NCBI GenBank assembly: GCA_018267825.1
Contig: JAFDXR010000011.1
Coordinates: forward strand, 186,001-250,000
From: Bacteroidota bacterium
Lineage (GTDB): Bacteria > Bacteroidota > Bacteroidia > B-17B0 > Aurantibacillaceae
Length of the DNA: 64,000 bases
Direction of reading: 5' to 3'
In this document: one piece after another, positions 47,390-63,967 of the stretch
How the letters are laid out: every line of letters begins with the position of its first letter
Numbering within the stretch: position 1 is the first letter of the stretch
Notes under the pieces: generated by a model
What the model was told of the DNA's origin: nothing
Database searches by the model: none
What the model saw: the letters and a program-made list of their open reading frames with translations, nothing else
Made by a program: the position numbers and the translations under genes

Positions 47390-48262
47390 CTAAGCTAAAG
47401 GATGGAAGCGGTTTACAATCGCTCTCCTGTCGTCCGCCGAGGTTTGGCGGTATTTTTCGGTGGTAGATATCCAAGCGTGGCCAGCCATCAGCTGAACCTG
47501 CTCTAAAGGAAAGCGGCGTTCATTGATCCAGTTAGCGATCACGCTTTGCCGGATCGCTTCAGGTGTAAGGTTACGGTCGGGAAACAAAGGCTTAAAGGTC
47601 GAGATGATATAGTGAACCTGATCTTTAGTGATTGGCGTTCCCCGTGTGCCAACAATCAGCTTGTCGCTTTCTATTTTGAGCAGCTCTCTCCTGGACTCGT
47701 TTATGTAGCTATCAAATATTTTGTACTGCCTTGGGTGAAGGTCTAAATGCCTTCTCTTTCCGCTTGGCGTAGACTGAACATAAACTTTGCCTTCATCAAG
47801 ATTGATGTGCTGCACTTTCAGGTTTTCCAATTCCTGAATTTGAAGAGCCTGATAGATCAGCAAGGAAACAATAACCTGATTCCTTAACCGGAGCATTGGA
47901 AAACGCTCATCTCTTTCCATCAGCAATTCCAGTTCAGCGGAATTAAAAAGATCGCTGTGGATTACTTTGTTATTCCTTACCGCTTTGAATTGCATCGTGC
48001 GGCAAGGGTGATCATTGCGCTGGCCGGTTTCGATCAGGTAATCGTAATATTTTTTTATGGCAGCAAGGATCGAATTTTTGTAGTTCTGATTCTTGTGGTT
48101 CTTCAGGTATTCAGTCAACGCCAAATGAACCTGTTTGAAAGTGAACGTGTGCATTTCAGGAAACATCGTAATAAACGGTGTTACCTCAAAGGAATAAGTT
48201 TTCACCGTTTCCTTCGTGTGTCCCTTTTTCAAAATGTATTCTTCAAAACTATTAGCTTCCAT
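47390..48262 (-). CDS. Tyrosine recombinase-like protein with degraded active site
   Basis: The 290-residue protein has an N-terminal SAM-like (core-binding) domain (EEYILKKGHTKETVKTYSFE) and a C-terminal phage-integrase domain. The box I arginine position reads ALQIQELENL (Gln in place of the Arg of GLRxSEL), and box II reads TPEAIRQSVIANWI, keeping one Arg but lacking both usual His of HxLRHxxAT. GHAWISTTEKYRQ keeps the last His and the Tyr. This looks catalytically weakened and may act as a partner or regulator of the intact recombinase encoded just upstream (11-base overlap). Confidence 0.85.
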   Translation of the reverse strand: MEANSFEEYILKKGHTKETVKTYSFEVTPFITMFPEMHTFTFKQVHLALTEYLKNHKNQNYKNSILAAIKKYYDYLIETGQRNDHPCRTMQFKAVRNNKVIHSDLFNSAELELLMERDERFPMLRLRNQVIVSLLIYQALQIQELENLKVQHINLDEGKVYVQSTPSGKRRHLDLHPRQYKIFDSYINESRRELLKIESDKLIVGTRGTPITKDQVHYIISTFKPLFPDRNLTPEAIRQSVIANWINERRFPLEQVQLMAGHAWISTTEKYRQTSADDRRAIVNRFHPLA

Positions 48263-49202
48263 AAGTTGGTGCGTTTATTTTATTGTAAAGATTCAAACGC
48301 TGCTTTCTGCGGCGTGAATAAACGGTGGTTGTATCCATCAGCGAGTGGCCTAAGAACTCCTGCACGAATTCAACATCAGCACCGTTGTCCTGCAAATGCG
48401 TGGCGATGCTATGGCGTAAACAATGCAGAGTAATATTTTTACTTAGGATCGCCGGATTTTGTGTTCGCTCAAGGATGCCTTTCAAAAGATCGCCTAAGTA
48501 CTGTCCTTTCATCCGGTCGCCTGATTTATTGATAAAGAAAGCTGGCGTTATTTCCATGCCTTCGTGCGGAAACAAAGTAGGGCGTTCTTCTACAATGTAT
48601 TCTCTCAGAGTTTGCACTCCGGTATCCGATAAAGGAACGGTGCGGCTCTTGCCACCTTTACCATCACGCACGGTTAAAATTCCCCGGCTAAGATTTACGT
48701 CGTTCACATCGAGCAGTTCTATTTCCGTTCTGCGTAACCCGCAACCGTAAGCAATAGCGATCAACGCTTTTTCCATTTTCGTGATGCAAGCCTTATCTAC
48801 TTCTTTTATTTCAGCGATGGTCAAGATTTGCCTGTTGCCGTGTTTACCAATATTCAGTTTCGGCAAATGCGCCGGAGAAGCTGTTACTTCACCCATGTCC
48901 ATCAGGTAATCAAAAAACAAACGCAGCGAAAACAAATGGCCTCTGATCATCGATTCACTCAGGCCGCCTTCTCTTCGTTGGTTTGGGCGTTCACGCAAGT
49001 ATTCGTAATATTGGATCACGTCGAAAGCAACAACGGTTTTTATTTCAGCAATGCCTCGGTTTTCAATAAAGAAAAGGAACTCCCGCACGTTGCTGGCGTA
49101 GCTGGTGTTCTTGCCCCGTGAATAACCCTTCAGGCGAATGAAGTCCGCAAATTCGCTGTAAAGGCGTTCGAACTCAAGGTTATTTATCGGTAGGCTTTTC
49201 AT
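48252..49202 (-). CDS. Tyrosine recombinase/integrase, intact catalytic residues
   Basis: The 316-residue protein has a core-binding domain (FADFIRLKGYSRGKNTSY) and a catalytic domain with all key residues: Arg in YGCGLRRTEIELL, HCLRHSIATHL (His-x-x-Arg), GHSLMDTTTVY (His and nucleophilic Tyr). It resembles XerC/XerD-like integrases of Bacteroidota elements. It overlaps the degraded partner by 11 bases, so the two are translated together and probably work on the same site. The nearest attachment site would be in the broken RHS gene. Confidence 0.93.
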   Translation of the reverse strand: MKSLPINNLEFERLYSEFADFIRLKGYSRGKNTSYASNVREFLFFIENRGIAEIKTVVAFDVIQYYEYLRERPNQRREGGLSESMIRGHLFSLRLFFDYLMDMGEVTASPAHLPKLNIGKHGNRQILTIAEIKEVDKACITKMEKALIAIAYGCGLRRTEIELLDVNDVNLSRGILTVRDGKGGKSRTVPLSDTGVQTLREYIVEERPTLFPHEGMEITPAFFINKSGDRMKGQYLGDLLKGILERTQNPAILSKNITLHCLRHSIATHLQDNGADVEFVQEFLGHSLMDTTTVYSRRRKQRLNLYNKINAPTYGS

Positions 49203-49279
49203 TTCTATTTTTCGTCTTCTTTTTTACTGATTATTTCTGCTATACAATGCGCACTCCTGAACTAATGGAACACTACGGC

Positions 49280-51823
49280 TCAATCGCCCTGTTTGTGCGA
49301 GTTTTGGTGTTCCATGCCTTTTGAACCAACAAGAACCAGCTGCTTTTCAAGATCGGCTTGCACCTTTTCCCTGATCTTATCCATTTCATCCCAAAACACA
49401 ATTTTGTATTTGAACCCTCGGTTGGCGTAGCCTCCGGTGCGCTGGATGTATTCCAGCAGTTCCAGTTCCTCGAAATACCGGAAACATTGCGTTTTACTTA
49501 TGTTCAGGGCTAAACGAACGTCCCGCTGCGTAAATTGGAATTCCTTTTCCTTGCCCTTGCCAGCGAGTTCCACAACGTATTGTTTCATGCGGTCGTAAAA
49601 TTGCCGGAGCGATGAGTCCAGGTCGTCCACCTTCAGCATGATCGCATCGAACAATATTTCACACGCCAGTTTTAAGTCCTCCGGTTCAGCGATTAAACGA
49701 CCTCTGTCGTCCTTTTTGCGCTGGTATTGGTGAAGGATAGTAATTTGCTTAACGAACGCCTGATAATGGCTATTTAAGCGGCGTAGCATCTTCGCTTCAA
49801 AGGGCAAATAAACCTTATCAGCATAAGGGTTCACCACCTCCAGCGGCATTATACACCGCATACAGTTTTGCAAAAACTCTTTTGCCTTGCGTTCCTCCCG
49901 TGTGTCAATGATGCCAGCCAGCTTGCGGTTCTGATGCGTTATAATACGCTTGGTTTGCTCTTCGCTTTCATCTACGCCCGTGATCATGGAGCGACTCATG
50001 TTATCGTAATACACCTCTGCTTTGGTTGTGGCAAGCATCGAAGCAAAATGGCTGCGGACGGTTTTCACCGCCGACATCAGGTTTCCGTACCTATCTTTAT
50101 ACGTTGTTGAAGAGGAGATATTTCCTGCGCTTTGCAATTCACGGAAAGCAAATTGCGCTTCTTCATCAAGGCCGTCGTAATCTTGGATCAGGATCAGCTT
50201 ATCCACCAACTCGTCCTTTGTATAGTGATAAAAAGATTTGCTGGTAACCCGTGTCATGCTGATTACATCTTCAGGCGGGAAGCAATCCCCGATGGTATTA
50301 ATCAGGTGGCTCTTTCCTGAACCGGACGTTCCCTGAACCAAAGCGTGAAGCGGTGTCGACATTTTATAGGTTGAAGCAATCACGAATAAAAGCCTTCGGG
50401 TACTTTCCTCTCCAACAACTCCAGCTTGCTGAATCAGATCGTCTATTCCCTTCATGAAGTTTTTACCTTTCAAGAACTGAATGCAGTCGTTTTGTTTTTC
50501 CGGTGTAAGCACACGGCCTTTGCGTTGCGACTGAAAGGGTGTTTTTACCTGCTCCAGTTGTTCTTCCCTGAATTTCTCCAGTAAATCAGTAAGCAGCAGC
50601 ATATCGCTTTCCAGTTCTTCGGGTGATTGGTTATAAAGCTCGGAGATCTGCTGAACGTATAAACTGATTTGCTCACGCTCGTACAAATCAATTTTAGTGC
50701 GCTCCTTCCTTCCTGTAGCAGCTTCCTCTACCATCAGCGTAATGCGCATACTTCCGATATCAGTTACCATTGAACCCAGCACATAATAGTTATTGTTAGG
50801 TCGCCGAAGCACAATCTTATGTTCATGGAGTACTTCGAGTTTTGGCTTCTCAAAATCCACCTCGCCTTCTAAGGTTGGATTAAGAAATTGCTGGGCGTTG
50901 TTCTCCCATTGTGACTCATTTACCGGATTGCTTTTAACCACTTCCTTAGTCGGTGAGAAAACAACCACTTCCTCTTCTTGGATGTTTTCCTTCGGTGTAA
51001 TTGGAAGCGGTGTACTTTCCACTTCGGTTACTTCTTCCACGCCTGTTGAGGACTCCAGCAACTTTTGAATTCCTGCGCTTCCTTCTCGCAGGAATATCTG
51101 ATTTAGGTTTTCCTTTTCAGGAACAACCACTCTTCGTAAAGGAACCCGCTGGATCAGGGTCTTTAACTGGTCTGCTGAATCTTTCATATTTGCTTCGTTT
51201 TTATTGATTGTGTCAACCCAAACAATGGATTGAAGCAGCGATAAACGTTTGATGGCGTCCTCGTGCTGTTTTAAAATTTTGCCATTGGGAATAAACAGTA
51301 AAGCATCTCCGTACTGGAGGATGTTTGCTTCGGCAATGGTTGCGGCATCTATTATGTCCGTGACAATGAAAAGGCGCTTTGCCATTTCATGCGGGTACGT
51401 TGGATAGATACCGTCTTCATTCAGTAAGGAGTGTTCTTCGGGATCAGTTTTAATCCTGATAGCGTAGAAGTTGACGATCTTTCCTTTGGCGTTTCTTAAT
51501 GGAAATAGAATCCCATAATTTCCAAAGGTTTTAAATCCATCCACTCCATTGCTGTTTCTGCGAGAGAATTTTCGCCAGCCAATTTCAATCAGAAGGTTTT
51601 TAGTTTTATCGTCCGCATCAAAATGAAACTGGCCAGCATTAAAACCAGCCCCTGTACGTTCTGAAGTAAACCCACGATCAAGCATCCACTTTTGTGGTAC
51701 TTTAGAATAAACGTTACCCAAGCCCTTTTTAAGAGTAGAATAAATCTTCTCAAAAAGCTCGTGGCGATCTCGTTCCTTCTGAAGCGAAATGCTTAATGGT
51801 ATTTTACTCCGTTCTTGTCCCAT
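49280..51823 (-). CDS. Primase-like/P-loop helicase protein of the element
   Basis: The 847-residue protein has two halves. The N-terminal 230 residues resemble the DnaG catalytic-core/Toprim_N arrangement (WMLDRGFTSERTGAGFNAGQ; GILFPLRNAKGKIVNFYAIRI), but the acidic residues expected in the Toprim site appear altered and no CHC2 zinc finger is seen. The C-terminal half has Walker A GTSGSGKS and Walker B LILIQDYDGLDEE, then a helix-turn-helix-like end (FTQRDVRLALNISKTQCFRYF). It is probably a replication or mobilisation helicase of the element. The overlap of 31 bases with the preceding gene suggests coupling. Confidence 0.8.
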   Translation of the reverse strand: MGQERSKIPLSISLQKERDRHELFEKIYSTLKKGLGNVYSKVPQKWMLDRGFTSERTGAGFNAGQFHFDADDKTKNLLIEIGWRKFSRRNSNGVDGFKTFGNYGILFPLRNAKGKIVNFYAIRIKTDPEEHSLLNEDGIYPTYPHEMAKRLFIVTDIIDAATIAEANILQYGDALLFIPNGKILKQHEDAIKRLSLLQSIVWVDTINKNEANMKDSADQLKTLIQRVPLRRVVVPEKENLNQIFLREGSAGIQKLLESSTGVEEVTEVESTPLPITPKENIQEEEVVVFSPTKEVVKSNPVNESQWENNAQQFLNPTLEGEVDFEKPKLEVLHEHKIVLRRPNNNYYVLGSMVTDIGSMRITLMVEEAATGRKERTKIDLYEREQISLYVQQISELYNQSPEELESDMLLLTDLLEKFREEQLEQVKTPFQSQRKGRVLTPEKQNDCIQFLKGKNFMKGIDDLIQQAGVVGEESTRRLLFVIASTYKMSTPLHALVQGTSGSGKSHLINTIGDCFPPEDVISMTRVTSKSFYHYTKDELVDKLILIQDYDGLDEEAQFAFRELQSAGNISSSTTYKDRYGNLMSAVKTVRSHFASMLATTKAEVYYDNMSRSMITGVDESEEQTKRIITHQNRKLAGIIDTREERKAKEFLQNCMRCIMPLEVVNPYADKVYLPFEAKMLRRLNSHYQAFVKQITILHQYQRKKDDRGRLIAEPEDLKLACEILFDAIMLKVDDLDSSLRQFYDRMKQYVVELAGKGKEKEFQFTQRDVRLALNISKTQCFRYFEELELLEYIQRTGGYANRGFKYKIVFWDEMDKIREKVQADLEKQLVLVGSKGMEHQNSHKQGD

Positions 51824-52449
51824 ACTTTGTTTTCCTTCTTTGGCTTTACAAGTGGCGTGTCGATATATATAACTTCCACCAGCGCAGTCAACCTCTTAAT
51901 TGCTCTTTCATGTTCAGGCATCACTTTCCCTTCATGAAGAGCAATCACCGCTTCTTTGTTATCGAGAACTTTCGACTCCAGTATCGTTGCGGCCTCCAAT
52001 ACGGTGTTCACCACAAACAGCCGTTTTGTTAGTTCGCTTGGATAGCCGGGATAAAGTCCAGGTTCCTGATTCATGTAGGCGGTATTTTCACTCCTAATCC
52101 TAATCGAGTAAAAATTCACAATCTCATTACTCTCGTTTCTTAACGGGAACATAATCGAGAAGATTCCGAACACCGTGTAAGGAACAGTATCGCTGTTTAC
52201 TCCGACAGTTGACTTTTGCATAAAGCCAACTTCAGCGAGTGCCATTTTAAATGACTGCTCCTGCCTGTGATGCATTTGGCCTGAATTAAAACAGGCTCCG
52301 GTTGCATCGATGCTCAAACCTTTTTTTGCCAACCATTCCCTCGGCGCATTCGATTTTGCAGCACGTATTCCATTTGAACACGACTTGTAAATGAAAGCCA
52401 TCCATCCGGTCTTAGTGGTTGGTAGTTGTTTTTCATTTTTTGTTTTCAT
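51793..52449 (-). CDS. Short primase-core-like protein, paralogue of the N-terminal part of the next gene
   Basis: The 218-residue protein aligns by eye with residues 40-215 of the protein encoded at 49280-51823: EWLAKKGLSIDATGACFNSGQ against KWMLDRGFTSERTGAGFNAGQ, IMFPLRNESNEIVNFYSIRI against ILFPLRNAKGKIVNFYAIRI, and LFVVNTVLEAATILE against LFIVTDIIDAATIAE. The C-terminal helicase half is missing, so it is either a standalone core or a partial duplication. Function unknown; probably paired with the larger protein. Confidence 0.78.
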   Translation of the reverse strand: MKTKNEKQLPTTKTGWMAFIYKSCSNGIRAAKSNAPREWLAKKGLSIDATGACFNSGQMHHRQEQSFKMALAEVGFMQKSTVGVNSDTVPYTVFGIFSIMFPLRNESNEIVNFYSIRIRSENTAYMNQEPGLYPGYPSELTKRLFVVNTVLEAATILESKVLDNKEAVIALHEGKVMPEHERAIKRLTALVEVIYIDTPLVKPKKENKVWDKNGVKYH

Positions 52450-52728
52450 GTTTATCCTTTTTATTCAACCCAGCAATAGCAAGGCTTTGAGAACAAACAT
52501 CGATACACCTTTCAGCACACGCAAGACAACTCAAAGAATAATCTGATCACCACAAGCAGATAAATTCTTCGAACAATTTGCACGTTCCGAAACGAAATGC
52601 CATACGACAAAAAATGAAAAATGCTTCCGTTTTTGAAACTTGGAAGCAAATGTAAAAATGGGGTTTAAGACTTATCCCCTGTTTGAAACGCTATGAAGCA
52701 CATTGGTGTGCATTGCGAAGAGATGAGA
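52450..52728. other. Spacer with three small hairpins
   Basis: About 280 bases. Within 52623-52720 lie GCTTCC/GGAAGC (52623-52647), GGGG/CCCC (52660-52679) and GCACA/TGTGC (about 52698-52711). They follow the stop of the 55-residue gene on the minus strand and precede the primase-like genes. They could end the radical SAM operon, or form a structured RNA or an origin for the element. Confidence 0.4.
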
Positions 52729-52896
52729 TTATTTCTTTTTGGTGTAACCCAAGGCAGCCGCAAATAAAGGATTTTTGTCCAACCAAATTTTTAGTTCCTG
52801 CAAATTATTAAAGTCGTTTGCACCTTTACTTCGGTTAGTATCATAAGTTACAGTGATCTTAATTGACCTAACTATCTCTTGTGGGATTTCGTTCAT
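52729..52896 (-). CDS. 55-residue protein, last gene of the radical SAM operon
   Basis: The ATG (52896-52894) comes one base after the glycosyltransferase stop, giving tight coupling. The protein starts MNEIPQEIVRSIKITVTYD, has a middle NNLQELKIWLDKNPLFAAAL and ends GYTKKK. It has no Cys, no signal peptide and no double-glycine leader motif, so a typical modified-peptide precursor is not evident. It could be a substrate, a recognition partner, or a small protein unrelated to the chemistry. It was found by hand because it is too short for most gene finders. Confidence 0.6.
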   Translation of the reverse strand: MNEIPQEIVRSIKITVTYDTNRSKGANDFNNLQELKIWLDKNPLFAAALGYTKKK

Positions 52897-52897
52897 C

Positions 52898-53854
52898 TTA
52901 TTGTATAACTGATATTTCTATTGTTTGATTAAAATAAGCGTAGTAGTTTGGAACTTGCTCAAGCAATATTCTTTCCCCTGCTCCGTACTTCTTGAATAGA
53001 TTTCTAAACTTTTTAAAATTGGCTAACGCATTTTCATTGTACCCATAGTTGTGCATAACCATCATGGCTTTTATATATGCAATTGAGTAACCAGCCGTAT
53101 TTGCCCTGAAGCAGAATTCAATATCTTCCCCAGCAGCGAATGGAAACTGCTCATTGAAATTTAAACCTTTCGCAACTTCTGCTGCAACTGCTAAATTCGC
53201 TGTTGTACCATAAAGTAACAGATCACTATTTTTCAATTTCCTGCCATTGAGTGTTCCGTTTATATTGTGATACGTTCCAAACCAATGCTCATCAAAAGAA
53301 ATTGTATTCCCTGATAAAATGTTACACTTGCGGTTCTCAATAAAACCTTCACTTATAGTTTTTAACCAATCAGTATCAGCGATACAATCCGAATCAATGA
53401 AGGCTACAATATCTGCCCCTAATTCTAAAGCAATGTCCTTTCCTATATTTCTCGCTTTGGCTGGCCCGAAATTCTTTGATAGACGATGTACCCGACAACC
53501 ATTAGCATCGAATGAATGCGGGGAACAATCATCCACTAAAATTATTGATTCCGGTTTATAGGTTTGTTTATTGAGCGACTCGGTCAAGTTTCGGATGTTT
53601 GTTGCTTCCTGCTTATTGCGAACATAAACAGGAGCTACAACTACTATTACCGGATGCTCAGGTACTTTATTGTAAATGGGTTCAGGGAACTCGATAAAAT
53701 TGCCCGACTCCCGTGCCTTGCCACTCTGCGATTTAAATGTGAATACCTCAATTAACTTGGTAAGGATAAACTTACGCCTATGCTTGTGGCCATCCAGACG
53801 TTCATACCAGTAATCCAGTATTTTTCCATATGGTAGATTTGATAATGAACTCAT
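52898..53854 (-). CDS. Family 2 glycosyltransferase of the radical SAM operon
   Basis: 318 residues. After an 65-residue lead with basic residues (DGHKHRRKFILTKLIEVF), the GT-A domain has VIVVVAPVYVRNKQEATNIR, IILVDDCSPHSFDANG, FGPAKARNIGKDIALELGAD, the DxD-like FIDSDCIADT, and LNFNEQFPFAAGEDIEFCF, which holds the catalytic Asp of the ED motif. It overlaps the upstream radical SAM gene by four bases and the 55-residue gene follows after one base. The acceptor may be a peptide, a lipid or a polysaccharide. Composition is AT-rich, unlike the glycosyltransferases of the capsule operon. Confidence 0.88.
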   Translation of the reverse strand: MSSLSNLPYGKILDYWYERLDGHKHRRKFILTKLIEVFTFKSQSGKARESGNFIEFPEPIYNKVPEHPVIVVVAPVYVRNKQEATNIRNLTESLNKQTYKPESIILVDDCSPHSFDANGCRVHRLSKNFGPAKARNIGKDIALELGADIVAFIDSDCIADTDWLKTISEGFIENRKCNILSGNTISFDEHWFGTYHNINGTLNGRKLKNSDLLLYGTTANLAVAAEVAKGLNFNEQFPFAAGEDIEFCFRANTAGYSIAYIKAMMVMHNYGYNENALANFKKFRNLFKKYGAGERILLEQVPNYYAYFNQTIEISVIQ

Positions 53855-54780
53855 ACTCCAAGGTTAGCACAATTTTTACAGTAATAATGATCTTTGTAAG
53901 AAGTAAGAAACCTGGCTCTTGCTTCACCCTCCCATATTTCCGAAACCGAGTTATTAAACACGTTTCCGTACTCATAAGGATTAAACATATTACAAGGTGT
54001 TACCGTTCCGTCATATAAAATGCACAATTCTTTTTGAAGAGCAGGACAGCTTTTCATTGTTCCGTGTGTCTTAGGTGACGAATCTGTATCAATTATGACT
54101 CCCGCCAATTGATCAGGACATAAGCATTTTAAATCACTATTTGAATACAGACTGTTTACCTTTTCGAATTGCGAAACAATGGAAGCGTGATTTTTATTTA
54201 CTTCGTCAATAAACGTTTCTATTCCCTTGTCCCGGCGGATTGTATTATAAAGTATGTGACAACGATTATTGAAAGCAAACTCACCAATATCAAAAATGCG
54301 ATGAAGGTTCGCTTCCTGAATAGTGAAGATGATAAATGGCCTGTTGGGAAGGCTTGCCAATTTTTGGATGTTTGATACAATCAATCCGTGCCTTGCTCCC
54401 TTCCTTATAATTGACAGCTCCCCGGCTTCAGGACTATCCATCGAAATGAAAAGTTGCACTTTATGATTAATCAAAACATCGAGAATGTTTTTGTTATTGA
54501 ATGAAAAATTGGAGAACAAATTGATATTTAAATCGGGGTGATTCTGCTTGGTGTAATTTACGATATCGATAAAATCAGGATGAATTGTACTTTCTCCTCT
54601 ACCGTTTAAACGAATGGTATTGGTTATGCCTCCAATTTCTGAAAGGATAGTCCGATAAGTTTCAAATGGTAAAAACTTACTCTTGCTAAACGGATTAACT
54701 TCTTTACCAAAGCCGCACATAGTACAACTTAGGTTACAGTTATAGCTCAGTTCAACTATTATCTCTTCAAATCTTTTCAA
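53851..54780 (-). CDS. Radical SAM protein with C-terminal SPASM-like cysteines (second of the operon)
   Basis: 309 residues. The radical SAM cluster motif is Cys15-x3-Cys19-x2-Cys22 (YNCNLSCTMCGFG), followed by IRLNGRGESTIHPDFIDI (where the GGE motif reads GRGES) and FSNFSF and FISMDSP. The C-terminus is cysteine-rich: LKCLCPDQ, SCPALQKELCILYDGTVTPCNMF and YYCKNCANLG, resembling SPASM/twitch auxiliary-cluster regions that bind extra iron-sulfur clusters. It probably modifies a peptide or protein. It overlaps the upstream radical SAM gene by four bases. Confidence 0.88.
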   Translation of the reverse strand: MKRFEEIIVELSYNCNLSCTMCGFGKEVNPFSKSKFLPFETYRTILSEIGGITNTIRLNGRGESTIHPDFIDIVNYTKQNHPDLNINLFSNFSFNNKNILDVLINHKVQLFISMDSPEAGELSIIRKGARHGLIVSNIQKLASLPNRPFIIFTIQEANLHRIFDIGEFAFNNRCHILYNTIRRDKGIETFIDEVNKNHASIVSQFEKVNSLYSNSDLKCLCPDQLAGVIIDTDSSPKTHGTMKSCPALQKELCILYDGTVTPCNMFNPYEYGNVFNNSVSEIWEGEARARFLTSYKDHYYCKNCANLGV

Positions 54781-55604
54781 TCGTTCTTTGTATTACATTT
54801 TAGCACTTTGCAAGGTAAGTTACAGCTACGCATTTTTGCGCTTACCTTAGCAGCGTATTCCGAATTTAGTATTTCATCCATTGACTGATGATGAAGATTT
54901 CCGAGAGGCTTTTGGCATTCAGAAATCCAATTTTGCTGGAAACAAGTATAAACATCTCCGTTCTGCACAATGGAAAGGTTACGATCAGCAGCATAACATT
55001 GTTGATCTGAAGCCGGAACAAAAGCATTCTTGTTTTCTAATGGAGTCCAGGAGCCCTCAAATCCTTCTGCAACATAATCCTGTATTGAATGATAAACACC
55101 GTGTTCCTTTGCATATAATGAAACAGCCTCCAAGTACGACTGAGTTTCTTTTGAAAGTACAGACTGTACACTTATTTGCGCCGGGGTTAAAACCGTTCGG
55201 GCATATTCAAAATTACTAATTACCCTTTCTTTAGAATTTGCACCACGCACAAACTTCCAAAACTCCACGTCCATTGTGTCAATGGAAACTACAATGTGAA
55301 TGTTGAATTTTGATACTCTGTCAATAAACTCCTTATCCATTGGCACGCCATTAGTAACGATTACGGTGCGGATTTTACTCTTTGATATTCCTTCAATGAT
55401 CTGATAAATCTCTTCTTTGAACAACAACGGTTCACCTCCCACAATGCACAACTCCTGTAATGTTGGGATACTCAGGATGCCATCTATTATTCGATCAGGC
55501 GCAAGTCGATCTGCCTTATCCTTATACTTCCAATGAGAACACTTGGTGCAACGCTGATTGCATTCAATTGTGTTCATGTAGTATATGTGAGTTGGTTGAT
55601 ACAT
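54777..55604 (-). CDS. Radical SAM protein with C-terminal SPASM-like cysteines (first of the operon)
   Basis: 275 residues. Cluster motif Cys15-x3-Cys19-x2-Cys22 (IECNQRCTKCSHW), then LCIVGGEPLLFKEEIY (GGE motif intact), VIVTNGVPMD and VVSIDTMD. C-terminal cysteines (QQCYAADRNLSIV, VYTCFQQ, RSCNLPCKVLKC) look like a SPASM-type auxiliary-cluster region. It is the first gene of a four-gene unit and shares a 200-bp divergent spacer with the restriction system. Known relatives act on peptides and proteins. Confidence 0.9.
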   Translation of the reverse strand: MYQPTHIYYMNTIECNQRCTKCSHWKYKDKADRLAPDRIIDGILSIPTLQELCIVGGEPLLFKEEIYQIIEGISKSKIRTVIVTNGVPMDKEFIDRVSKFNIHIVVSIDTMDVEFWKFVRGANSKERVISNFEYARTVLTPAQISVQSVLSKETQSYLEAVSLYAKEHGVYHSIQDYVAEGFEGSWTPLENKNAFVPASDQQCYAADRNLSIVQNGDVYTCFQQNWISECQKPLGNLHHQSMDEILNSEYAAKVSAKMRSCNLPCKVLKCNTKND

Positions 55605-55804
55605 TTTTCGATAAACTAATCTACAATATTTAAGTCAGTTTAAATTAAAAAATCAATTGAAACTGTTAGATTAAAGTGTAAACACAAAATATAAATCTAT
55701 CATGCTGAATACGTGTTAATTACATTCTGCATTAAGGCCGAATTATTGATGTTTAAATTCAAAAAAAATCGTATTTTTTACCTTTCAAAAAACAGAAAAT
55801 TTGT
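55605..55804. promoter_or_regulatory. Divergent promoter region between the radical SAM operon and the restriction system
   Basis: A 200-bp, very AT-rich spacer. TACCTTTC at 55779-55786 resembles the TAnnTTTG -7 box, with TTTA at 55752-55755 as a poor -33 box (spacing 23, longer than the usual 19-21). No operator repeat was recognised. Confidence 0.35.
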
Positions 55805-57160
55805 ATGCTAAAATTCATAGATTTGTTTGCGGGGATTGGCGGCTTTCATAAAGCACTGCATGAGTTGGGGCATGAATGTGTATTCGTAAGTGAACTTGAT
55901 CCGAACTTAAGAAAATTATACCAAGAGAATTGGGGAATCAGACCTGAAGGAGACATCCGAATGATTACAAACAAGGTCATTCATGTAATCCCTAAACACG
56001 ATATTTTATGTGCCGGATTTCCGTGCCAGCCTTTTTCAAAAGCAGGAAAACAACTTGGTCGTGAAGATAAAGAGCGAGGTACCCTCTTCGATGACATTGT
56101 GAAAATTCTTGATTACAGAAAGCCTAAATATTTCATACTTGAAAATGTACCTTTTATTGCCAAACACGACAATGAGGAGACATGGAATTACATGAAGAAG
56201 CAACTTGAGAAGTTAGGATACGAAGTTGATCACAGGAATTATTCCCCACATGATTTTGGAGTTCCACAACATAGATTAAGAATTTTTATTGTTGGTTCAT
56301 TGAAAGGGCTCAAACATTTTAGTTTCGATAATATTGACAAGTTAAAAACAGGCTTAGGTGAAAATGATATTTACAATTTCATTGAACAGAATCCTGAACA
56401 CGCAAAAAAATTACCCAAAAAAAATATTGAATGTTTAAAACTGTGGCAGGAGTTTATTGATGCATTACCTAAAGAAGTGAAAATTCCGGGCTTCCCAATT
56501 TGGAGCATGGAGTTTGGAGCAACGTATCCTTACGAGGAGACATATCCTTTCAAAATGTCTGCAAATAAACTATCTGAATACAAAGGAAACTTTGGTGTTT
56601 CACTCAGCGGACTATCGAAAGAAGACCAGTTTCAATTATTACCAAGTTATGCGAGAGTTGAAGATGAGTTTCCTGATTGGAAAAGACGGTATATCGCAAA
56701 TAACCGAAAGTTCTATCAGGAGAATAAGAAATATGTAAAAGAAGTGGTTAAACAAATTTCTAATTATGATTCGCAGAGTTGGCAAAAATTAGAGTGGAAT
56801 GTTGGTGATGCAGAAAGGAAATTAAAAAATTACATTATCCAATTCAGAGCCTCCGGTATTAGACTTAAAAAAGTTGACTTCTTCCCTTCTTTAGTTTGTA
56901 CTAATACACAAATTCCAATTATAGGTTGGGAAAAGCGATACATCACAAGAGAAGAAGGATTAAAATTGCAATCAATGGAGGGAATTGCACTTCCCGAATT
57001 TGATAATGCTGCTTTTAAAGCACTTGGTAACGCAGTGAATTCTAAAATCGTGAAGATGATTGCGCAAGAGCTAATTATTGATAAGCCTAAGCAAACCACC
57101 AACGGTAAGAAACACCCAAAGGCAAAAGCTAAATCAAAAAAAGTATATGAAACAGCCTGA
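55805..57160 (+). CDS. C5 cytosine-specific DNA methyltransferase
   Basis: 451 residues with the C5-MTase motifs in order: I FIDLFAGIGGF at the start, IV CAGFPCQPFSKAG with catalytic Cys74, VI ILENVPF (residues 111-117), VIII QHRLRIFIVG (155-164), a long variable target-recognition region, and X GNAVNSKIVKMIAQ near the end. The C-terminus is lysine-rich. It methylates a cytosine at C5 in the recognition sequence and so would protect host DNA. The target cannot be inferred. It heads a four-gene operon; the next start lies inside its end (14-base overlap). Confidence 0.95.
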   Translation: MLKFIDLFAGIGGFHKALHELGHECVFVSELDPNLRKLYQENWGIRPEGDIRMITNKVIHVIPKHDILCAGFPCQPFSKAGKQLGREDKERGTLFDDIVKILDYRKPKYFILENVPFIAKHDNEETWNYMKKQLEKLGYEVDHRNYSPHDFGVPQHRLRIFIVGSLKGLKHFSFDNIDKLKTGLGENDIYNFIEQNPEHAKKLPKKNIECLKLWQEFIDALPKEVKIPGFPIWSMEFGATYPYEETYPFKMSANKLSEYKGNFGVSLSGLSKEDQFQLLPSYARVEDEFPDWKRRYIANNRKFYQENKKYVKEVVKQISNYDSQSWQKLEWNVGDAERKLKNYIIQFRASGIRLKKVDFFPSLVCTNTQIPIIGWEKRYITREEGLKLQSMEGIALPEFDNAAFKALGNAVNSKIVKMIAQELIIDKPKQTTNGKKHPKAKAKSKKVYETA

Positions 57161-58685
57161 AAAAGTTAGTATCCGACCTAAAGTGACCATGCTTTCTATT
57201 CTAAAACACGTAGAATATGAAATGTGGTTTGCATTGGCTGAGTTCATCGATAATGCTATTGCAAGTTATTTGAAATATGAAAAGGAACTAAAGGCCGCAG
57301 AGGGCAAAGATTACAAGCTATGCATACAAATCGAAATTAATGAAGCTGAAAATAAAATTGTAATTAGGGACAATGCTGCCGGGATTCATGAAGCAGATTT
57401 CGGAAGAGCGTTTCGTGCTGCTGAAATACCACCTGACAACACTGGCTTGTCTGAATTCGGAATGGGGATGAAATCCGCTGCTTGTTGGTATTCGGATAAT
57501 TGGACGGTGAGAACAAAGGCATTAGGAGAAGATCAGGAGAAAATTGTTCATTTTGATATGAAGAAGATTTTTTCTGATAATATGGAAGAGTTGGATGTTG
57601 AGAAGAAGGCTGCAAATAAGAAGCATCACTACACTATCATAGAATTAATTGATGTAAATAAGATACCAAGAAGAAAGGGTATCGGAAAAGTAAAAGATCA
57701 TCTAAGGAGCATATACAGAGATTTCCTTCGCAAAGGTATTATTGAAATCAAACTTGGAACGGATGTATTGACATACGAAGAACCAAGAATTTTGAATGTA
57801 GCAAGATACGATGACCTAAAAGGGAATCCAGTTTTATGGAGAAAGGAAATTGATTTTGATTTGGGAAATGGGATGAGTGTAAAGGGCTTTGCTGCTATTA
57901 GAGAGAAAGGTTCTACACAAGAAGCGGGCTTTGCTTTATTTAGAAGAGGTCGTGTGATTGAAGGAAGTTTTGATAACGGATTCAGACCGGAATATATTTT
58001 TGGAAACCCTAATAGCTTTAGGTATCAAAGGGTTTTTGGGGAATTACACTTAGATGGTTTTGAAGTTAGTTTTACTAAAAAGGGGATTCAATGGGATGAA
58101 AATTTGGAAATTTTCCTACAATTGTTGCGACATGATTTAAGCACAAAGGAATTTCCTTTATTACAACAAGCGGAAGAGTATCGTGTTCGTGCAACCGAAA
58201 AAGAATATAAAGCTGCACAGAAAGCCCTCGATGAAACTGTCGATGACTTAAAAGAAAAAGCACCGCAGGCCATCAAGGAAGTTCAGGAATCTCCGGTTGT
58301 TGCAGCGGAAGCAGAGGAACTGGTTAAAACGGATAAAACCATACAACGGGAATTTGAAGTTAGGTTCAATAAAATAACCTGGAAAATTTCAATAGAACTT
58401 TCTTTTGATCCATCCCTGAATGAGTTGATTGAAGTTGGTGACCATCTTGTCAACCAAAACTCAACAGATGCTTCTTTTAGAAATATTGGCATTCGCTTGT
58501 CCTTAACGCATCCTTTCATGGTTCAATTTGCGGGGACAGATACCAATAAAATTGAACCGATATTACGATTCGCTGCGGCCTTCGGTCTATCTGAGGTAAT
58601 CGCTAAAAGTTCAGGTGCAAAAACTCAAGGTGAAGTAAGGAGAAACTTCAACCAACTCATTAGTCATTTAAGTAAAATGCAATAA
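57147..58685 (+). CDS. MORC-like GHKL ATPase of a restriction system
   Basis: 512 residues from the ATG at 57147 (MKQPEKVSIRPKVTM), which overlaps the methyltransferase end; an earlier in-frame ATG at 57078 would lie far inside it. The GHKL ATP-binding motifs are Glu32 and Asn36 (AEFIDNAIAS), DNAAGI (75-80, with Ala where Gly or Thr is common), and FGMGMKSA (104-111). A S5-like segment and a coiled coil (KEYKAAQKALDETVDDLKEK) follow. Prokaryotic MORC-like ATPases were described in restriction-modification contexts by Iyer, Abhiman and Aravind (2008). It may load on DNA and couple ATP use to restriction. Confidence 0.9.
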   Translation: MKQPEKVSIRPKVTMLSILKHVEYEMWFALAEFIDNAIASYLKYEKELKAAEGKDYKLCIQIEINEAENKIVIRDNAAGIHEADFGRAFRAAEIPPDNTGLSEFGMGMKSAACWYSDNWTVRTKALGEDQEKIVHFDMKKIFSDNMEELDVEKKAANKKHHYTIIELIDVNKIPRRKGIGKVKDHLRSIYRDFLRKGIIEIKLGTDVLTYEEPRILNVARYDDLKGNPVLWRKEIDFDLGNGMSVKGFAAIREKGSTQEAGFALFRRGRVIEGSFDNGFRPEYIFGNPNSFRYQRVFGELHLDGFEVSFTKKGIQWDENLEIFLQLLRHDLSTKEFPLLQQAEEYRVRATEKEYKAAQKALDETVDDLKEKAPQAIKEVQESPVVAAEAEELVKTDKTIQREFEVRFNKITWKISIELSFDPSLNELIEVGDHLVNQNSTDASFRNIGIRLSLTHPFMVQFAGTDTNKIEPILRFAAAFGLSEVIAKSSGAKTQGEVRRNFNQLISHLSKMQ

Positions 58686-58687
58686 TT

Positions 58688-60982
58688 ATGACAGAAATTA
58701 TTGAAGTACAAACCAATAATCCGTCCAGTCAGTGGAATCCCAATGTAGGCGATGAAACATTAGAGTTACTTCGCAGTAAAGGTTTTGCAAATTCAGAAGG
58801 TGTGCTTAATGCAACCGGAGAGCGTGTACTCGATGAAACATACAGAATTATGCAGGTCTGCGGTAATCCCGCTACTGTTCAATATAACGAAACAGGAATT
58901 GTTATTGGATATGTGCAAAGTGGTAAAACACTTTCATTTACTACCTTAACAGCATTGGCTCGTGATAACAATTATCAAATAGTAATTGTTATTGCGGGAA
59001 CTTCTACTCCCCTTGTAAATCAATCAACCGAGCGATTAAGAAGAGATTTAAGAATCGATACAAGATTCGATAGAAAATGGACTGTGCTAAGAAATCCCAA
59101 CAGTGTTGAGGATTTTGAAAACATACAAACTATACTAAGCCAATGGGCTGATGCCACATTTCCGAAGGATCGTTGCAGAACATTACTGATTACAGTAATG
59201 AAACAGAAAGATCACCTAAGAAACTTAACCGAACTTTTACAGGATATTTCGTTGGCCGGAGTACCAACACTTATTATTGATGATGAGGGCGATCAGGCCA
59301 GTTTGAATACTGCTGCGAGAAGAGCAGCAAGAGAGGGCATCGACCTGGAGGATTTAACAGAAAATGAGGTATCAACGATTTACCGCAGAATAAGAAATCT
59401 AAGGGCAATCTTTCCGCATCACACATTCTTGCAATACACTGCAACTCCACAGGCAAATCTGTTCATCAACATTATGGACAGATTATCTCCGAACTTTATT
59501 AAACTTTTAACGCCGGGTGGTGATTATACAGGAGGCATTTCTTTCTTTGTACAACGACCTGAACTGATAAGAGAAATTCCTTTGCAGGATATCTCGACAC
59601 CCAATCAACCTTTACTTGAACCGCCTGAAAGTATGCTTTCAGCGTTGCGTTTGTTTTACATGGGAGTTGTGGCAGGAATCATTCTTGGGCATGATAAATT
59701 ATCCAATCAAAGGAATCGCTCCATGCTGATTCACCCATCACGTTTGCAAGGAGATCACAACACTTATTATAGTTGGTTAAACAATATTCGTGATAGTTGG
59801 ATTCGCTTAATAAGAAGCAATGATTTATCTGACAAGGAAGAGCGAGATTATTTAATTAGCGAGTTTAAAACCGCTTATGATGATTTACGATCAACTGCGG
59901 GAGCTGAACTCCCTGCGTTTGATGCAATGATCGGCCACGATTTAATTCACGCAATTAACTATACTCCTATTGTAGAAGTAAATTCAAGACGAGGCTCAAC
60001 GCCGCAAATCAATTGGCAAGATTCATACTCTTGGATTTTAGTGGGTGGGCAATCAATGGATAGAGGCTTTACGGTGGAAGGATTAACGGTTACCTATATG
60101 CCCCGAAATGTTGGCGTTGGTAACGTTGACACCATTCAGCAGCGGGCTCGTTTCTATGGTTACAAAAGGGCCTACCTGAATTATTGCAGAGTGTTTTTGG
60201 ATCAGGTTACAATCGATGCTTATACATCTATTGTGGAGCATGAAGAAGATGTAAGAGAAAGATTAGTTGAGTTCGACATAAACAACAAGCACTTGAACGA
60301 TTGGGAGCGTGATGTTGTTTTAGATGGTATGCTTAATCTTACAAGAACGAATGTCCTGTATGATGACCTTGATCGGGATTTTTTCGGTAACGAATGGTTT
60401 ACTATCAGAGCTCCGCACGACACTGAAAATTATATCACATTAAATCTTAACAGCATTCTTTCCTTCCTTCAGCCAAGAATGCAGTCTTTTCAGGTTGATG
60501 AAGGGCATCCTAATAGGACGCAGGAACAGAAACATCTTGTTTCGAGAATGACCGTAAAAGATTGTCTCGAGCATTTATTGAATAAACTAAAATATACTCG
60601 TGAAAGCGACTCTGCGAGTTATTCTTCAATAAGAGGAATTTTAAAACGCTATATCGAGGATCATCCGGACGAAGAGTGTCTTGTTTATTTAATGAGTGCA
60701 AGGAGTTCAGATGACTGGACGAGAAGAACTCGTAGGCTAAACAACAATAACGAAATACAGCAGTTATTTCAAGGTAAGCAGCCTACTAAGAAAACGGCTC
60801 AATATGAAGTCGGAGAAGTATATCCGGGCGATAGAGAAATAAAGAATGATAATCTACTGTCTATTCAAATACATTTATTAGACATCAGAAATACCACTTT
60901 TGTGAGTGTGCCAACGCTTGCGATATGGATTCCCGATCAAATGAGTAAAGACATTGTTCGACAACCAAGTAATTCAATATGA
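58688..60982 (+). CDS. Z1-domain ATPase (superfamily 2 helicase-like) of a restriction system
   Basis: 764 residues. Walker A is GYVQSGKT (residues 74-81), typical of the Z1 family with its Gln-Ser start; Walker B DDEGDQ (198-203); the Z1 signature YTATPQAN (250-257); later SMDRG (456-460) and QQRARFYGYK (484-493), matching helicase motifs V-VI. Z1 proteins are characteristic partners of MORC-like ATPases and methyltransferases in this restriction class and are thought to act as DNA translocases. The gene starts 2 bases after the MORC stop and overlaps the nuclease gene by 4 bases. Confidence 0.92.
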   Translation: MTEIIEVQTNNPSSQWNPNVGDETLELLRSKGFANSEGVLNATGERVLDETYRIMQVCGNPATVQYNETGIVIGYVQSGKTLSFTTLTALARDNNYQIVIVIAGTSTPLVNQSTERLRRDLRIDTRFDRKWTVLRNPNSVEDFENIQTILSQWADATFPKDRCRTLLITVMKQKDHLRNLTELLQDISLAGVPTLIIDDEGDQASLNTAARRAAREGIDLEDLTENEVSTIYRRIRNLRAIFPHHTFLQYTATPQANLFINIMDRLSPNFIKLLTPGGDYTGGISFFVQRPELIREIPLQDISTPNQPLLEPPESMLSALRLFYMGVVAGIILGHDKLSNQRNRSMLIHPSRLQGDHNTYYSWLNNIRDSWIRLIRSNDLSDKEERDYLISEFKTAYDDLRSTAGAELPAFDAMIGHDLIHAINYTPIVEVNSRRGSTPQINWQDSYSWILVGGQSMDRGFTVEGLTVTYMPRNVGVGNVDTIQQRARFYGYKRAYLNYCRVFLDQVTIDAYTSIVEHEEDVRERLVEFDINNKHLNDWERDVVLDGMLNLTRTNVLYDDLDRDFFGNEWFTIRAPHDTENYITLNLNSILSFLQPRMQSFQVDEGHPNRTQEQKHLVSRMTVKDCLEHLLNKLKYTRESDSASYSSIRGILKRYIEDHPDEECLVYLMSARSSDDWTRRTRRLNNNNEIQQLFQGKQPTKKTAQYEVGEVYPGDREIKNDNLLSIQIHLLDIRNTTFVSVPTLAIWIPDQMSKDIVRQPSNSI

Positions 60983-61959
60983 GATTAATCGAATTATTTG
61001 AAACACTTGAATTGCCTGACGATAACGATGGAAGCATTTTTAGTGCAATGCCTATTCCTGATTATCCAACGTTCAGAATTGCGGTAGATAGTTTCGGTTT
61101 TCCAATTCTGCTTTTGACCATTGCTAACAGAGGGAAAGTAGGAATTTTAAAAAATTTCAAACTAAAATATTTGCAGTTAATTCAAAATGTCGATTGCAAA
61201 ATCATTGAATCAGGAAATACTACGCAGCAACAGTTTACGGTTATTAAATTTACTTGCGATGATAAATTACTGCAAAATTATTTCCTTCAAATAGCAGAAC
61301 CCTTTTTAAAATCTCTGAATTCAAAACCTACACAGGAGCAAGTAACTCATTCTTTTAACAGATTTATTGAGGTATTCAGGGCTTTAAGTGATGTGCCGAC
61401 AAAAACTATTCAGGGCTTATGGTCTGAACTGTTCTTTATTGACAGCTGTAATTCTCCGGAAGTAATGCTAAACTATTGGCATCAAGTCCCCGAAGAGAAA
61501 TTCGATTTTAATTCGGGTATTGAAAAGATTGAAGTTAAAAGCAGTGGCAATTTTGAACGCATACATATTTTCTCTTCTGAACAATTACACCCGTACGCAG
61601 GAGATCAGGTTATTATTGTCTCCCTGTTTGTAAGACAGAGCAGTTCAGGAAAAACTGTACAAGATTTAATCGAAAATATCTCCGCTAAAATTAGCGATTC
61701 AGAGCTAATAGAAAAAATGAATTCTATAGTTTGTAAAACTCTTGGATCATCACTGGAACAATCACTAAAAATCAAATTTGATTATATGATTGCGCAGGAC
61801 TCAATGAGGCTTTACAAGCATCAAGATATCGTAAAAATAGAGGAAGTACATATTCCAAGTGAAGTTTCTGAGGTGAAATACAAATCGGATCTAACCAACA
61901 TCAAATCGATTGAGTTGCCTAAATTTTCTCCTAAGAATGCGCTGTATAATGCTATCTGA
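60979..61959 (+). CDS. PD-(D/E)XK nuclease-like protein (DUF4420-like) of the restriction system
   Basis: 326 residues with Glu150 (GLWSEL), Asp176 (EKFDFNSG) and EVKSS, Glu185-Val-Lys187, matching a PD-(D/E)XK active site. The N-terminal 130 residues are a separate alpha/beta region. Proteins of this kind, the PF14390 type, occur at the end of MORC/Z1 restriction operons and supply the cutting activity. The start overlaps the Z1 gene (ATGA). Its stop codon is immediately adjacent to that of the convergent gene at 61960, leaving no room for a terminator. Confidence 0.9.
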   Translation: MRLIELFETLELPDDNDGSIFSAMPIPDYPTFRIAVDSFGFPILLLTIANRGKVGILKNFKLKYLQLIQNVDCKIIESGNTTQQQFTVIKFTCDDKLLQNYFLQIAEPFLKSLNSKPTQEQVTHSFNRFIEVFRALSDVPTKTIQGLWSELFFIDSCNSPEVMLNYWHQVPEEKFDFNSGIEKIEVKSSGNFERIHIFSSEQLHPYAGDQVIIVSLFVRQSSSGKTVQDLIENISAKISDSELIEKMNSIVCKTLGSSLEQSLKIKFDYMIAQDSMRLYKHQDIVKIEEVHIPSEVSEVKYKSDLTNIKSIELPKFSPKNALYNAI

Positions 61960-62787
61960 TTAGTTCAACTTTTGCCCACACCAAGCAACAACTGCGGCTC
62001 TTAATCCTGCATCAATTACAGTTGTAGGCTTGTATAGGAATCTGTACAATCTTGCCCTGTCAAACACCACTCCATAAGACTCAACTGCATCCTTACCCCA
62101 TTTCTTTGTTGGAATAATCTCAGTTATAGACATTGAAGGAACAGTAGTTTCGTAGAACCAGTTAATGTATTGACTCCATACGCTTAACTGTATTTGCTTT
62201 TTCAAATTCCAATTTCTCCCGGCTGCACATTGCATAAGAACTATGATTTGCCCTCTTCGTTCGTCTCCAAATGGTATCCAACCAATTACGTCAACACCTC
62301 TGTCTTTTGCTTGTGCGGGAGGGTCTTTTGCTGCGCGATCTTCAAACATTTTCGCTGCAATTTGGTCTATCTGTTGAGGCAGGTTTCCATTATTAGGAAA
62401 ACCTAATATTACAGTTTCTCCATTAAGATAACTTTTTAAAGCAACGTCTGAAATCCTTTCAAACAGGCTTGTTCCACCATTGGCGTTCGCTGCTCCCCAG
62501 TATGAAAAAATCAGACATAATAAATACTCCGGATAATTATTCCAGTCTATCTCAGGACTAATTACACCGCCATTAACTGTAAAGGGAGGATTAGCTCCGT
62601 AAAGTCGTTGGCGTTTTTCTAATTCCTGTATAACACTATCAAATAGAGCATCACTGTCTGCTGCTCCATTATCCTCAAGCAATGAAGTCAACTTTGCTTT
62701 TGACATTGGTGCATTACCATAAACAACATTCAGTTCAGCCCAATCAGAAATTAAAGAGATATCCTCAACGTTTGTAAGTTCAATCAT
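61960..62787 (-). CDS. Putative nuclease-fold protein, second gene of a two-gene unit
   Basis: 275 residues. The central part has RGVDVIGWIPFGDERRGQ then IIVLMQCAAGRNW, with Asp166 and Gln186 spaced as in restriction-endonuclease-like folds (GVD ... QxK), and Glu110 in a preceding helix. The expected Lys is replaced by Ala at 188; Lys196 or Lys197 might take its role. I know this pattern from nuclease-like proteins encoded beside ParB-like genes, but cannot name the family. It overlaps the ParB-like gene by 8 bases and converges on the nuclease of the restriction system. Confidence 0.65.
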   Translation of the reverse strand: MIELTNVEDISLISDWAELNVVYGNAPMSKAKLTSLLEDNGAADSDALFDSVIQELEKRQRLYGANPPFTVNGGVISPEIDWNNYPEYLLCLIFSYWGAANANGGTSLFERISDVALKSYLNGETVILGFPNNGNLPQQIDQIAAKMFEDRAAKDPPAQAKDRGVDVIGWIPFGDERRGQIIVLMQCAAGRNWNLKKQIQLSVWSQYINWFYETTVPSMSITEIIPTKKWGKDAVESYGVVFDRARLYRFLYKPTTVIDAGLRAAVVAWCGQKLN

Positions 62788-63967
62788 TGCTGTTAATCAT
62801 TTTTTGAAGTTCCTCAATTGCACTAAAACACTCCGCAGTAGCTTCCTTTATTTCAGCATCTTTTTTATACTTCCACGCAAAGCCCAAAGCATATTTTATC
62901 GAACTGCTTGCTGTATTAATCTTTCTTACAATGTAATCACGTTCTCCCTCGCTTCTTTCATATGCCTCCTCCAAATTGTGGTTCTTGATTAGAAAGTCGG
63001 TAGCTTCCTTACTTGCCAATACAGGTGCTAATTCAGATGTAATTCTACGTGAGTCACTAAGCACCGGCTCTTTCTTTCCATCACCGTATATCCAAGTGAG
63101 TAAGTTTTTAAGTTGCTCAGTTTTATTTATTGGTACAATCCTATCTTGAAAATTAGCGTCTTTGTATGTTGGAACTCCAATGTATGCTCTAATCGAAGGC
63201 GAGTTTAGCGCAACGGTTAAAAGCGAAAATTTATCTTTAATTTTTTTAGTTTCAAATGATAAATCATCCTCCGCTTCTTTCATTACTTTGAAACATAAAT
63301 ACTGCTTCTTAATAACATCGCTTCGATCTGCAATTTGTTGTTGAATGGTTTTAATACTTGTATTAATATCTTCGCCACCTTTTACACTTTCATCTATATT
63401 CTGAGCAATGTAAGCTGCTTTAGCGAACGCATCCCACTTCAGTAACCCGGTGATGTGACGCACTCCCAAATATGGAGCAACCTGTTTCCTGTCAAAATAG
63501 ACAATTGAAGGAAGAATACTCAGGTCTTCTCGAACATCATCATTTTTTGGAGAAGGGAAACTGCCTTCTCTTATTTTCAATTTGGTTCTTAGTTCACTAT
63601 CGGTAAGAATTTTCGCCGTCGCAGTCCTTCTATTTCCTTCAACAACGATGAATTCGATTTTTTTTGCTTTCACCAGTTCAGCAAGTTGTTTTTGAACTGT
63701 ATCTGTGTCGGAATTTACATCAATTCCGGCAGGAATTGTTTTTGGAACGAGAATAATTGGTTCTTCATCAAAATATCCGTTCTCAGACATGGACATAGCC
63801 AACTCTTCTAAATCGTACTCGTCATACAAAGTTTTTATGATATCGAAATCAGATATTGAATCCCTTTGCTTTGCGAGTCTTGGATTTTCTGTATCGGGGA
63901 AAATAAGTTCAATTGGCACATCCAATTGCGGCCTTCTTTTTCCCTTTCCTGCATAGTCGTCACTCAT
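62780..63967 (-). CDS. ParB-like (ParB/Srx-fold) protein, first gene of a two-gene unit
   Basis: 395 residues. The N-terminal domain has LDVPIELIFPDTENPRLAK, LEELAMSMSENGYFDEEPIIL and EFIVVEGNRRTATAKIL, the ParB signature with GNRR at 111-114. The rest is helical and shows no clear helix-turn-helix of chromosomal ParB. ParB/Srx-fold domains can bind nucleotides and also occur in restriction and phosphorothioation-linked proteins (DndB-like). Next to the restriction operon and a putative nuclease, a defence role is likely but not shown. Confidence 0.78.
   Translation of the reverse strand: MSDDYAGKGKRRPQLDVPIELIFPDTENPRLAKQRDSISDFDIIKTLYDEYDLEELAMSMSENGYFDEEPIILVPKTIPAGIDVNSDTDTVQKQLAELVKAKKIEFIVVEGNRRTATAKILTDSELRTKLKIREGSFPSPKNDDVREDLSILPSIVYFDRKQVAPYLGVRHITGLLKWDAFAKAAYIAQNIDESVKGGEDINTSIKTIQQQIADRSDVIKKQYLCFKVMKEAEDDLSFETKKIKDKFSLLTVALNSPSIRAYIGVPTYKDANFQDRIVPINKTEQLKNLLTWIYGDGKKEPVLSDSRRITSELAPVLASKEATDFLIKNHNLEEAYERSEGERDYIVRKINTASSSIKYALGFAWKYKKDAEIKEATAECFSAIEELQKMINSND

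Follow-up and report, generated by a model that had tools for sequence, protein, structure and literature searches.

The window, a stretch of 64,000 nucleotides from a Bacteroidota bacterium, carries two radical SAM genes (rSAM1 and rSAM2) and a GT2 glycosyltransferase gene (GT) which, as judged from the sequences, are a rare, scattered, self-contained and horizontally moving unit found in unrelated sites. This conserved unit of three genes, about 2.7 kb in length, is referred to as the cassette; a gene for a 55-aa protein that adjoins it in the window is not one of its members. Our preferred reading, held tentatively and at somewhat less than an even chance, is that the three enzymes would tailor a substrate supplied by the host, as a self-contained unit that moves horizontally and is carried with defence cargo.

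The three-gene unit and the 55-aa gene

All four ORFs that the earlier note had described as overlapping or touching were found, on the minus strand (Table 1), and Pfam supports its identification of the larger three as radical SAM, radical SAM and GT2. The rSAM1 and rSAM2 genes overlap by 4 nt (TTGA), as do rSAM2 and GT (ATGA), and the 55-aa ORF starts 1 nt past the GT stop. The grouping of all four into one set stood in part: each of the genes is real, but the conserved unit has three genes and ends at the GT.

Table 1. Positions of the features discussed, in the window unless a locus is named
Feature	Position	Strand	Description	Basis
rSAM1	54777-55604	minus	radical SAM, SPASM/twitch-type C-terminus, 275 aa	Pfam; conserved in 14 other genomes
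rSAM2	53851-54780	minus	radical SAM, twitch-type auxiliary domain, 309 aa, TTG start	Pfam; invariant Cys
GT2 glycosyltransferase	52898-53854	minus	318 aa	Pfam; alignment; AlphaFold model; Foldseek
55-aa protein	52729-52896	minus	small conserved family; fixed flank of the mobile element	homologues; locus comparison
55-aa family members	window 52729-52896; L055:7191-7358; L056:6201-6368; L057:7184-7351; L058:7777-7941
Intergenic region, rSAM1 / C5-methylase	55605-55804	none	divergent; 200 bp between start codons	sequence
Defence module	55805-61959	plus	C5-methylase, HATPase_c_3, Z1 helicase, DUF4420 (PD-(D/E)XK)	profiles; another complete copy elsewhere in this genome
Tyrosine recombinases (two)	47390-48262, 48252-49202	minus	mobile-element backbone	adjoin cargo
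DnaG_N/primase-like proteins (two)	49280-51823, 51793-52449	minus	mobile-element backbone	adjoin cargo

A scan of a genome collection with rSAM1 gave ten loci, 70–77% identical, and whole-genome searches added G546, G869, G914 and G995; with G048 being the genome of locus L004 and G552 that of L009, the total is 15 genomes including that of the window. One locus (L008) ends at a contig end within rSAM2, which leaves 14 complete loci, the window among them. The order rSAM1-rSAM2-GT is kept in all 14 with nothing between the genes, the complete cassettes measure 2707–2764 bp, and rSAM1 is 69–77% identical to its relatives.

The earlier note had offered the 55-residue protein as a possible substrate, to be given up if the small gene proved to be lost where the three enzymes stay. 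This is what was observed. In tblastn searches over all loci the gene was missing from all 13 other complete cassette loci, and in four places (L055, L056, L057 and L058) it is present without the cassette, after other cargo. The family is also conserved instead of variable, with 63–73% identity over 55 aa. As the note had stated, the protein is devoid of cysteine, and it gave no significant match in Pfam. A chance ORF was considered and rejected: an ORF of this kind arose in 33% of shuffles, yet homologues exist, and the 55-aa ORF is for that reason regarded as a real gene.

Comparison of the loci places this gene at the border of the cargo. One homologue in G030 follows TIR/AAA cargo on a sister element and a second, in the same genome, follows a kinase-helicase operon. 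A further homologue was found in G026, a truncated relative in G004, and another copy in the genome of the window itself, where it follows a GT4::rSAM fusion, a Pol-beta nucleotidyltransferase::phosphatase and a WG-repeat protein. Between the window and the sister element L055, DNA homology begins inside the 55-aa gene and extends, at 77%, into the primase-like gene, and the cargo upstream of the 55-aa gene differs. Locus L004 has no 55-aa gene, and at this border it shares with the window nothing but the primase-like gene's leader. Missing from the other cassettes, present elsewhere in cassette-free homologues and joined by continuous homology to the primase-like gene, the 55-aa gene is therefore a fixed-flank gene; it is part of the mobile element, outside the cassette, and is no dedicated substrate. 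A modified-peptide pathway of four genes acting on the 55-residue protein is thus very improbable, even though the genes touch in the window. Members of the 55-aa family, which end in GYTKKK, are found at the 3' end of various cargo operons, mostly adjoining recombinase or replication genes.

The search for a precursor was extended to 454 small ORFs within 1.5 kb of the 15 cassettes, and comparison of all against all gave no common candidate. The matches between L004 and the window fall in their common mobile element; most of the others are antisense ORFs at the conserved rSAM1 5' end, which were discounted as overlapping conserved coding sequence. The cassette seems to need no local partner, because in L002 it lies tightly between scpB, 3 bp after which it starts, and an rluB-like gene, 19 bp before which it stops (gene names by reading). 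Elsewhere it starts 2 bp after an HNH-type gene (L004) or stops 5 bp before a PDC-S02 gene (L042).

Domains of the three enzymes

The Pfam matches for rSAM1 were to Radical_SAM (2e-16) and SPASM (8.5e-8), and those for rSAM2 to the same families (1.2e-6 and 6.5e-13), although the Radical_SAM match of rSAM2, at 29.3 bits, is slightly below the curated cut-off of 29.5; the SPASM matches are to PF13186 in both proteins. The CX3CX2C motif reported in the earlier note is present in both as C15/C19/C22 and is invariant among relatives. There are exactly ten cysteines in rSAM1, at identical positions in 15/15 aligned sequences. Beyond the motif these are residues 53, 203, 221, 230, 261, 265 and 270, with an auxiliary-domain pattern of C203-X12-G216-X4-C221 followed by C230, C261, C265 and C270. 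By sequence, the rSAM proteins thus have the CX9-15GX4C pattern and later cysteines of an auxiliary cluster. The auxiliary cysteines of rSAM2, also invariant, form CX17C at 245/263 and CX2C at 301/304, and its twitch region aligns to BtrN (4m7s/4m7t) Cys on Cys, both motifs falling on the fully ligating cysteines of the BtrN auxiliary cluster (ligation from PMC6231123). For the radical SAM core of rSAM2, the nearest PDB match was SkfB. By these sequence features, both proteins are of the SPASM/twitch type. A fold-based reading of rSAM1 was dropped, as its predicted structure was poor (pLDDT 58) and unusable.

The cysteine-rich C-terminal ends had been likened to those of peptide-modifying enzymes. 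They do represent twitch/SPASM domains, but such domains are known too in enzymes with substrates other than peptides, e.g., BtrN and MoaA (PMC6231123). The cassette proteins have in common with BtrN, SkfB and MoaA the CX3CX2C motif, the radical SAM barrel and an auxiliary-cluster domain, and differ in that no protein of known function is closely related to them in sequence, their best NCBIfam scores being far under the cut-offs. They differ further from SkfB which, like CteB and SuiB, carries an N-terminal leader-binding RRE (PMC6231123). No RRE was found in rSAM1 or rSAM2 with Pfam or NCBIfam, and both proteins begin at the barrel, with the radical SAM motif at residue 15, and therefore have no room for one at the N-terminus. 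Of the features that characterize radical SAM maturation in RiPP pathways, neither a linked precursor gene, in the comparison of small ORFs around the 15 cassettes, nor an RRE, with Pfam and NCBIfam, was found.

The GT matched GT2 in Pfam (PF00535, 1.8e-14) and has a conserved N-terminal extension of 65 aa. Its DXD (D154/D156) and ED (E243/D244) motifs are invariant, and its AlphaFold model (pLDDT 81.6) had GT2 enzymes as Foldseek matches; the GT-A fold, the DXD and the acidic base motif together are those of a GT2 member. The matches included polysaccharide, teichoic-acid and polypeptide types, none clearly favoured. Homology of the extension to the N-terminus of the type-B rSAM protein was considered and found to be unsupported (hhalign probability 0.2%).

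These features bear on two alternatives to the preferred reading. In the first, the radical SAM enzymes would modify a host protein or an unlinked peptide that the GT then glycosylates, i.e., a RiPP-like or glycoprotein system with a remote substrate. Twitch/SPASM enzymes often act on peptides, the SkfB-like core of rSAM2 and the resemblance of the GT model to polypeptide GalNAc-transferases, as well as to polysaccharide GTs, are in keeping with it, and radical SAM domains in the FtsH ternary conflict systems are predicted to modify peptide effectors (PMC7159879). Against it are the short lengths of the two proteins, with no RRE-like N-terminal extension, the lack of a small ORF common to the flanks of the 15 cassettes, and that no PqqD-like gene, exporter or peptidase was seen in those flanks; we regard it as rather unlikely. 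In the second, the radical SAM enzymes would alter a sugar that the GT places on a surface glycan or glycolipid, hiding phage receptors. The GT2 fold with its polysaccharide and teichoic-acid matches, the defence-associated mobile setting and the BtrN-like twitch domain argue for this, BtrN having an aminocyclitol as its substrate. However, no polysaccharide, flippase or polymerase genes were recognised near any copy, and the cassette has no gene for a transmembrane protein. We regard such remodelling, too, as rather unlikely. Under our preferred reading, the host-supplied substrate may be a glycan, a small molecule or a protein.

Spread and genomic setting

The cassette was found in one of 396 genomes of the phylum, which is the window's own, in two of 87 genomes of the family and in six of 248 genomes of one sampled family, its centre genome counted. 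No copy was found in phages, plasmids or IMG/VR, and rSAM2 without the cassette was not seen in 238 phylum genomes beyond the one already known. All copies are from Bacteroidota save one, in an Ignavibacteria MAG; in a tree of weak resolution, the rSAM1 of that MAG nests among those of Bacteroidota.

The earlier note had located the genes inside defence cargo and divergent from a restriction system. Both points were borne out, the former by the window's neighbours and by comparison of elements, the latter by the set of C5-methylase, HATPase, Z1 and DUF4420 genes. The recombinases and primase-like genes of the backbone are 84–94% identical in G030. With L004, the recombinases and the large primase-like protein share 86–89% identity and the small primase-like protein 76%; in the two loci one and the same mobile element carries the cassette, but the defence cargo differs. 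A family of such elements with variable defence cargo is seen in Bacteroidota (window 47390–63967; L024–L026, L055, L080), made up of paired tyrosine (or serine) recombinases, DnaG_N-like proteins and an amidase-like gene, and its backbone genes have almost no PHROG match. Two further cargo genes at window 61960–63967, encoding 395 aa (weak PD-Lambda-5_A/PDC-M38A similarity, phrog_3694) and 275 aa (phrog_14650), are possibly another defence pair. Elsewhere in the window, positions 40776–41351 encode a bacterial Suppressor-of-fused (SUFU) domain protein of 191 aa.

At several other, unrelated loci the neighbours are again defence-like. Locus L004 has PDC-M62A/B, L007 has HsdM and a Schlafen-domain protein that shows similarity to type I specificity, L008 has GmrSD with a methylase, L009 has two caspases and an nSTAND/NACHT-like protein, and L042 has a PDC-S02 protein and a type I methylase. 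By reading, with no profile match, more hsd-like subunits were identified in L007 and L042. No defence gene was seen near the cassette in L002, L010, L044 and L045. A PF02384 or PF00145 methylase lies within 10 kb of the cassette in 4 of the 15 genomes, against 0.58 expected, a moderate excess (P about 0.002 at 10 kb and 0.013 at 20 kb) in a test that was picked after the loci had been seen. A nearest-gene test with PADLOC gave no excess (5/20 vs 3/18 random genes). Because the one test was post hoc and the other without excess, the link to defence is read as no more than suggestive. The cassette could instead be cargo unrelated to defence, such as a trait of metabolism or resistance that has simply collected in these islands. 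The four loci without visible defence genes and the weak nearest-gene statistics fit this view, and the proximity of methylases and the RM, NACHT/caspase, PDC-M62 or PDC-S02 neighbours at several unrelated loci speak against it, making it unlikely.

Other modules that pair a radical SAM enzyme with a GT were found. The window's own genome has a second mobile element (L058:7777-15385 and L080:2-5150, contig C1) with a methylase-HATPase-Z1-DUF4420 module like that of the window, 90/72/69/56% identical over the four genes. It also carries the 55-aa gene, and its cassette slot is occupied by a GT4::rSAM/SPASM fusion (767 aa) with the nucleotidyltransferase::phosphatase and WG-repeat genes named above. 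That one slot next to this RM module can be filled by two non-orthologous rSAM+GT modules hints at a possible common role. A second cassette type consists of GT2, rSAM/SPASM (340 aa) and a P-loop kinase (AAA_33/chloramphenicol-phosphotransferase-like) with no rSAM2, and was found in six genomes (L020, L021, L022, L023, L034, L035). Its rSAM and GT2 proteins are distant homologues of rSAM1 and GT, at about 34% identity, and its rSAM proteins are mutually 85–89% identical where compared (L021, L034, L035). By reading, two of these cassettes adjoin HsdM-like or SMC-like ATPase genes.

Proposed function and relation to known systems

We hypothesize that rSAM1 and rSAM2 would each cleave SAM, using an auxiliary twitch-type Fe-S cluster, and abstract hydrogen from a host-cell substrate, which would be oxidised, epimerised or cross-linked in one or two steps. 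Glycosylation would follow, the GT adding a sugar to the product or attaching the product. No gene for a precursor, an exporter or a flippase and no polysaccharide gene was recognised with the cassette, so the substrate would have to be one that its hosts commonly contain. Given its carriage as cargo, often next to restriction or other defence genes, the cassette would most likely serve defence or competition, perhaps by altering a cell-surface or intracellular host molecule. Defence is our leading guess, at roughly an even chance.

The earlier note's description of a pathway of unfamiliar type held up, in that no curated NCBIfam family or PADLOC system matches it. PADLOC 2.0 gave no complete system, the GT was unmatched and the rSAM proteins had weak matches to prokaryotic viperin (pVip); the open-access papers that were searched contained no description of the cassette. 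The core of rSAM1 resembles pVip (PADLOC 6.9e-16 over residues 8–137), as does the defence setting, but rSAM1 scores 52.2 bits against an NCBIfam viperin cut-off of 180 and, unlike pVip, has a C-terminal SPASM-type domain, a second radical SAM partner and a GT. Mycofactocin (MftC and MftF) also joins a radical SAM enzyme to a GT2, and MftF is the top NCBIfam match of the GT; however, the score is 79 bits against a cut-off of 280, and no common small ORF near the cassettes is a candidate for MftA or MftB. The order of HATPase, Z1 and DUF4420 in the neighbouring module resembles MzaB-MzaC-MzaD of the MZA anti-phage system, to which the module is distantly related, although all its scores are under the NCBIfam cut-offs and the module adjoins the cassette without being part of it. 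The FtsH ternary conflict systems (PMC7159879) likewise have a predicted radical SAM enzyme, but with a predicted peptide effector and vWA/FtsH partners, which the cassette lacks; in the passages of that paper that were found, a unit of two radical SAM enzymes and a GT is not mentioned.

A more specific proposal, by analogy with viperin and its modified nucleotides, is a new chemical phage defence. In it the two radical SAM enzymes and the GT would jointly produce a small molecule or host factor, radical-modified and glycosylated, by which infection is blocked; the logic would be like that of viperin but the chemistry new, and the GT2-rSAM-kinase and GT4::rSAM modules would be further variants of this idea. 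We consider this quite improbable.

The exact boundary of the three genes makes the cassette directly clonable and testable. Paired radical SAM enzymes and a dedicated GT that appear to move between phyla with no precursor gene are unmatched by the NCBIfam and PADLOC models used and, if the link to defence is true, radical SAM chemistry would, with the cassette, have a second role in prokaryotic immunity in addition to that of viperin.
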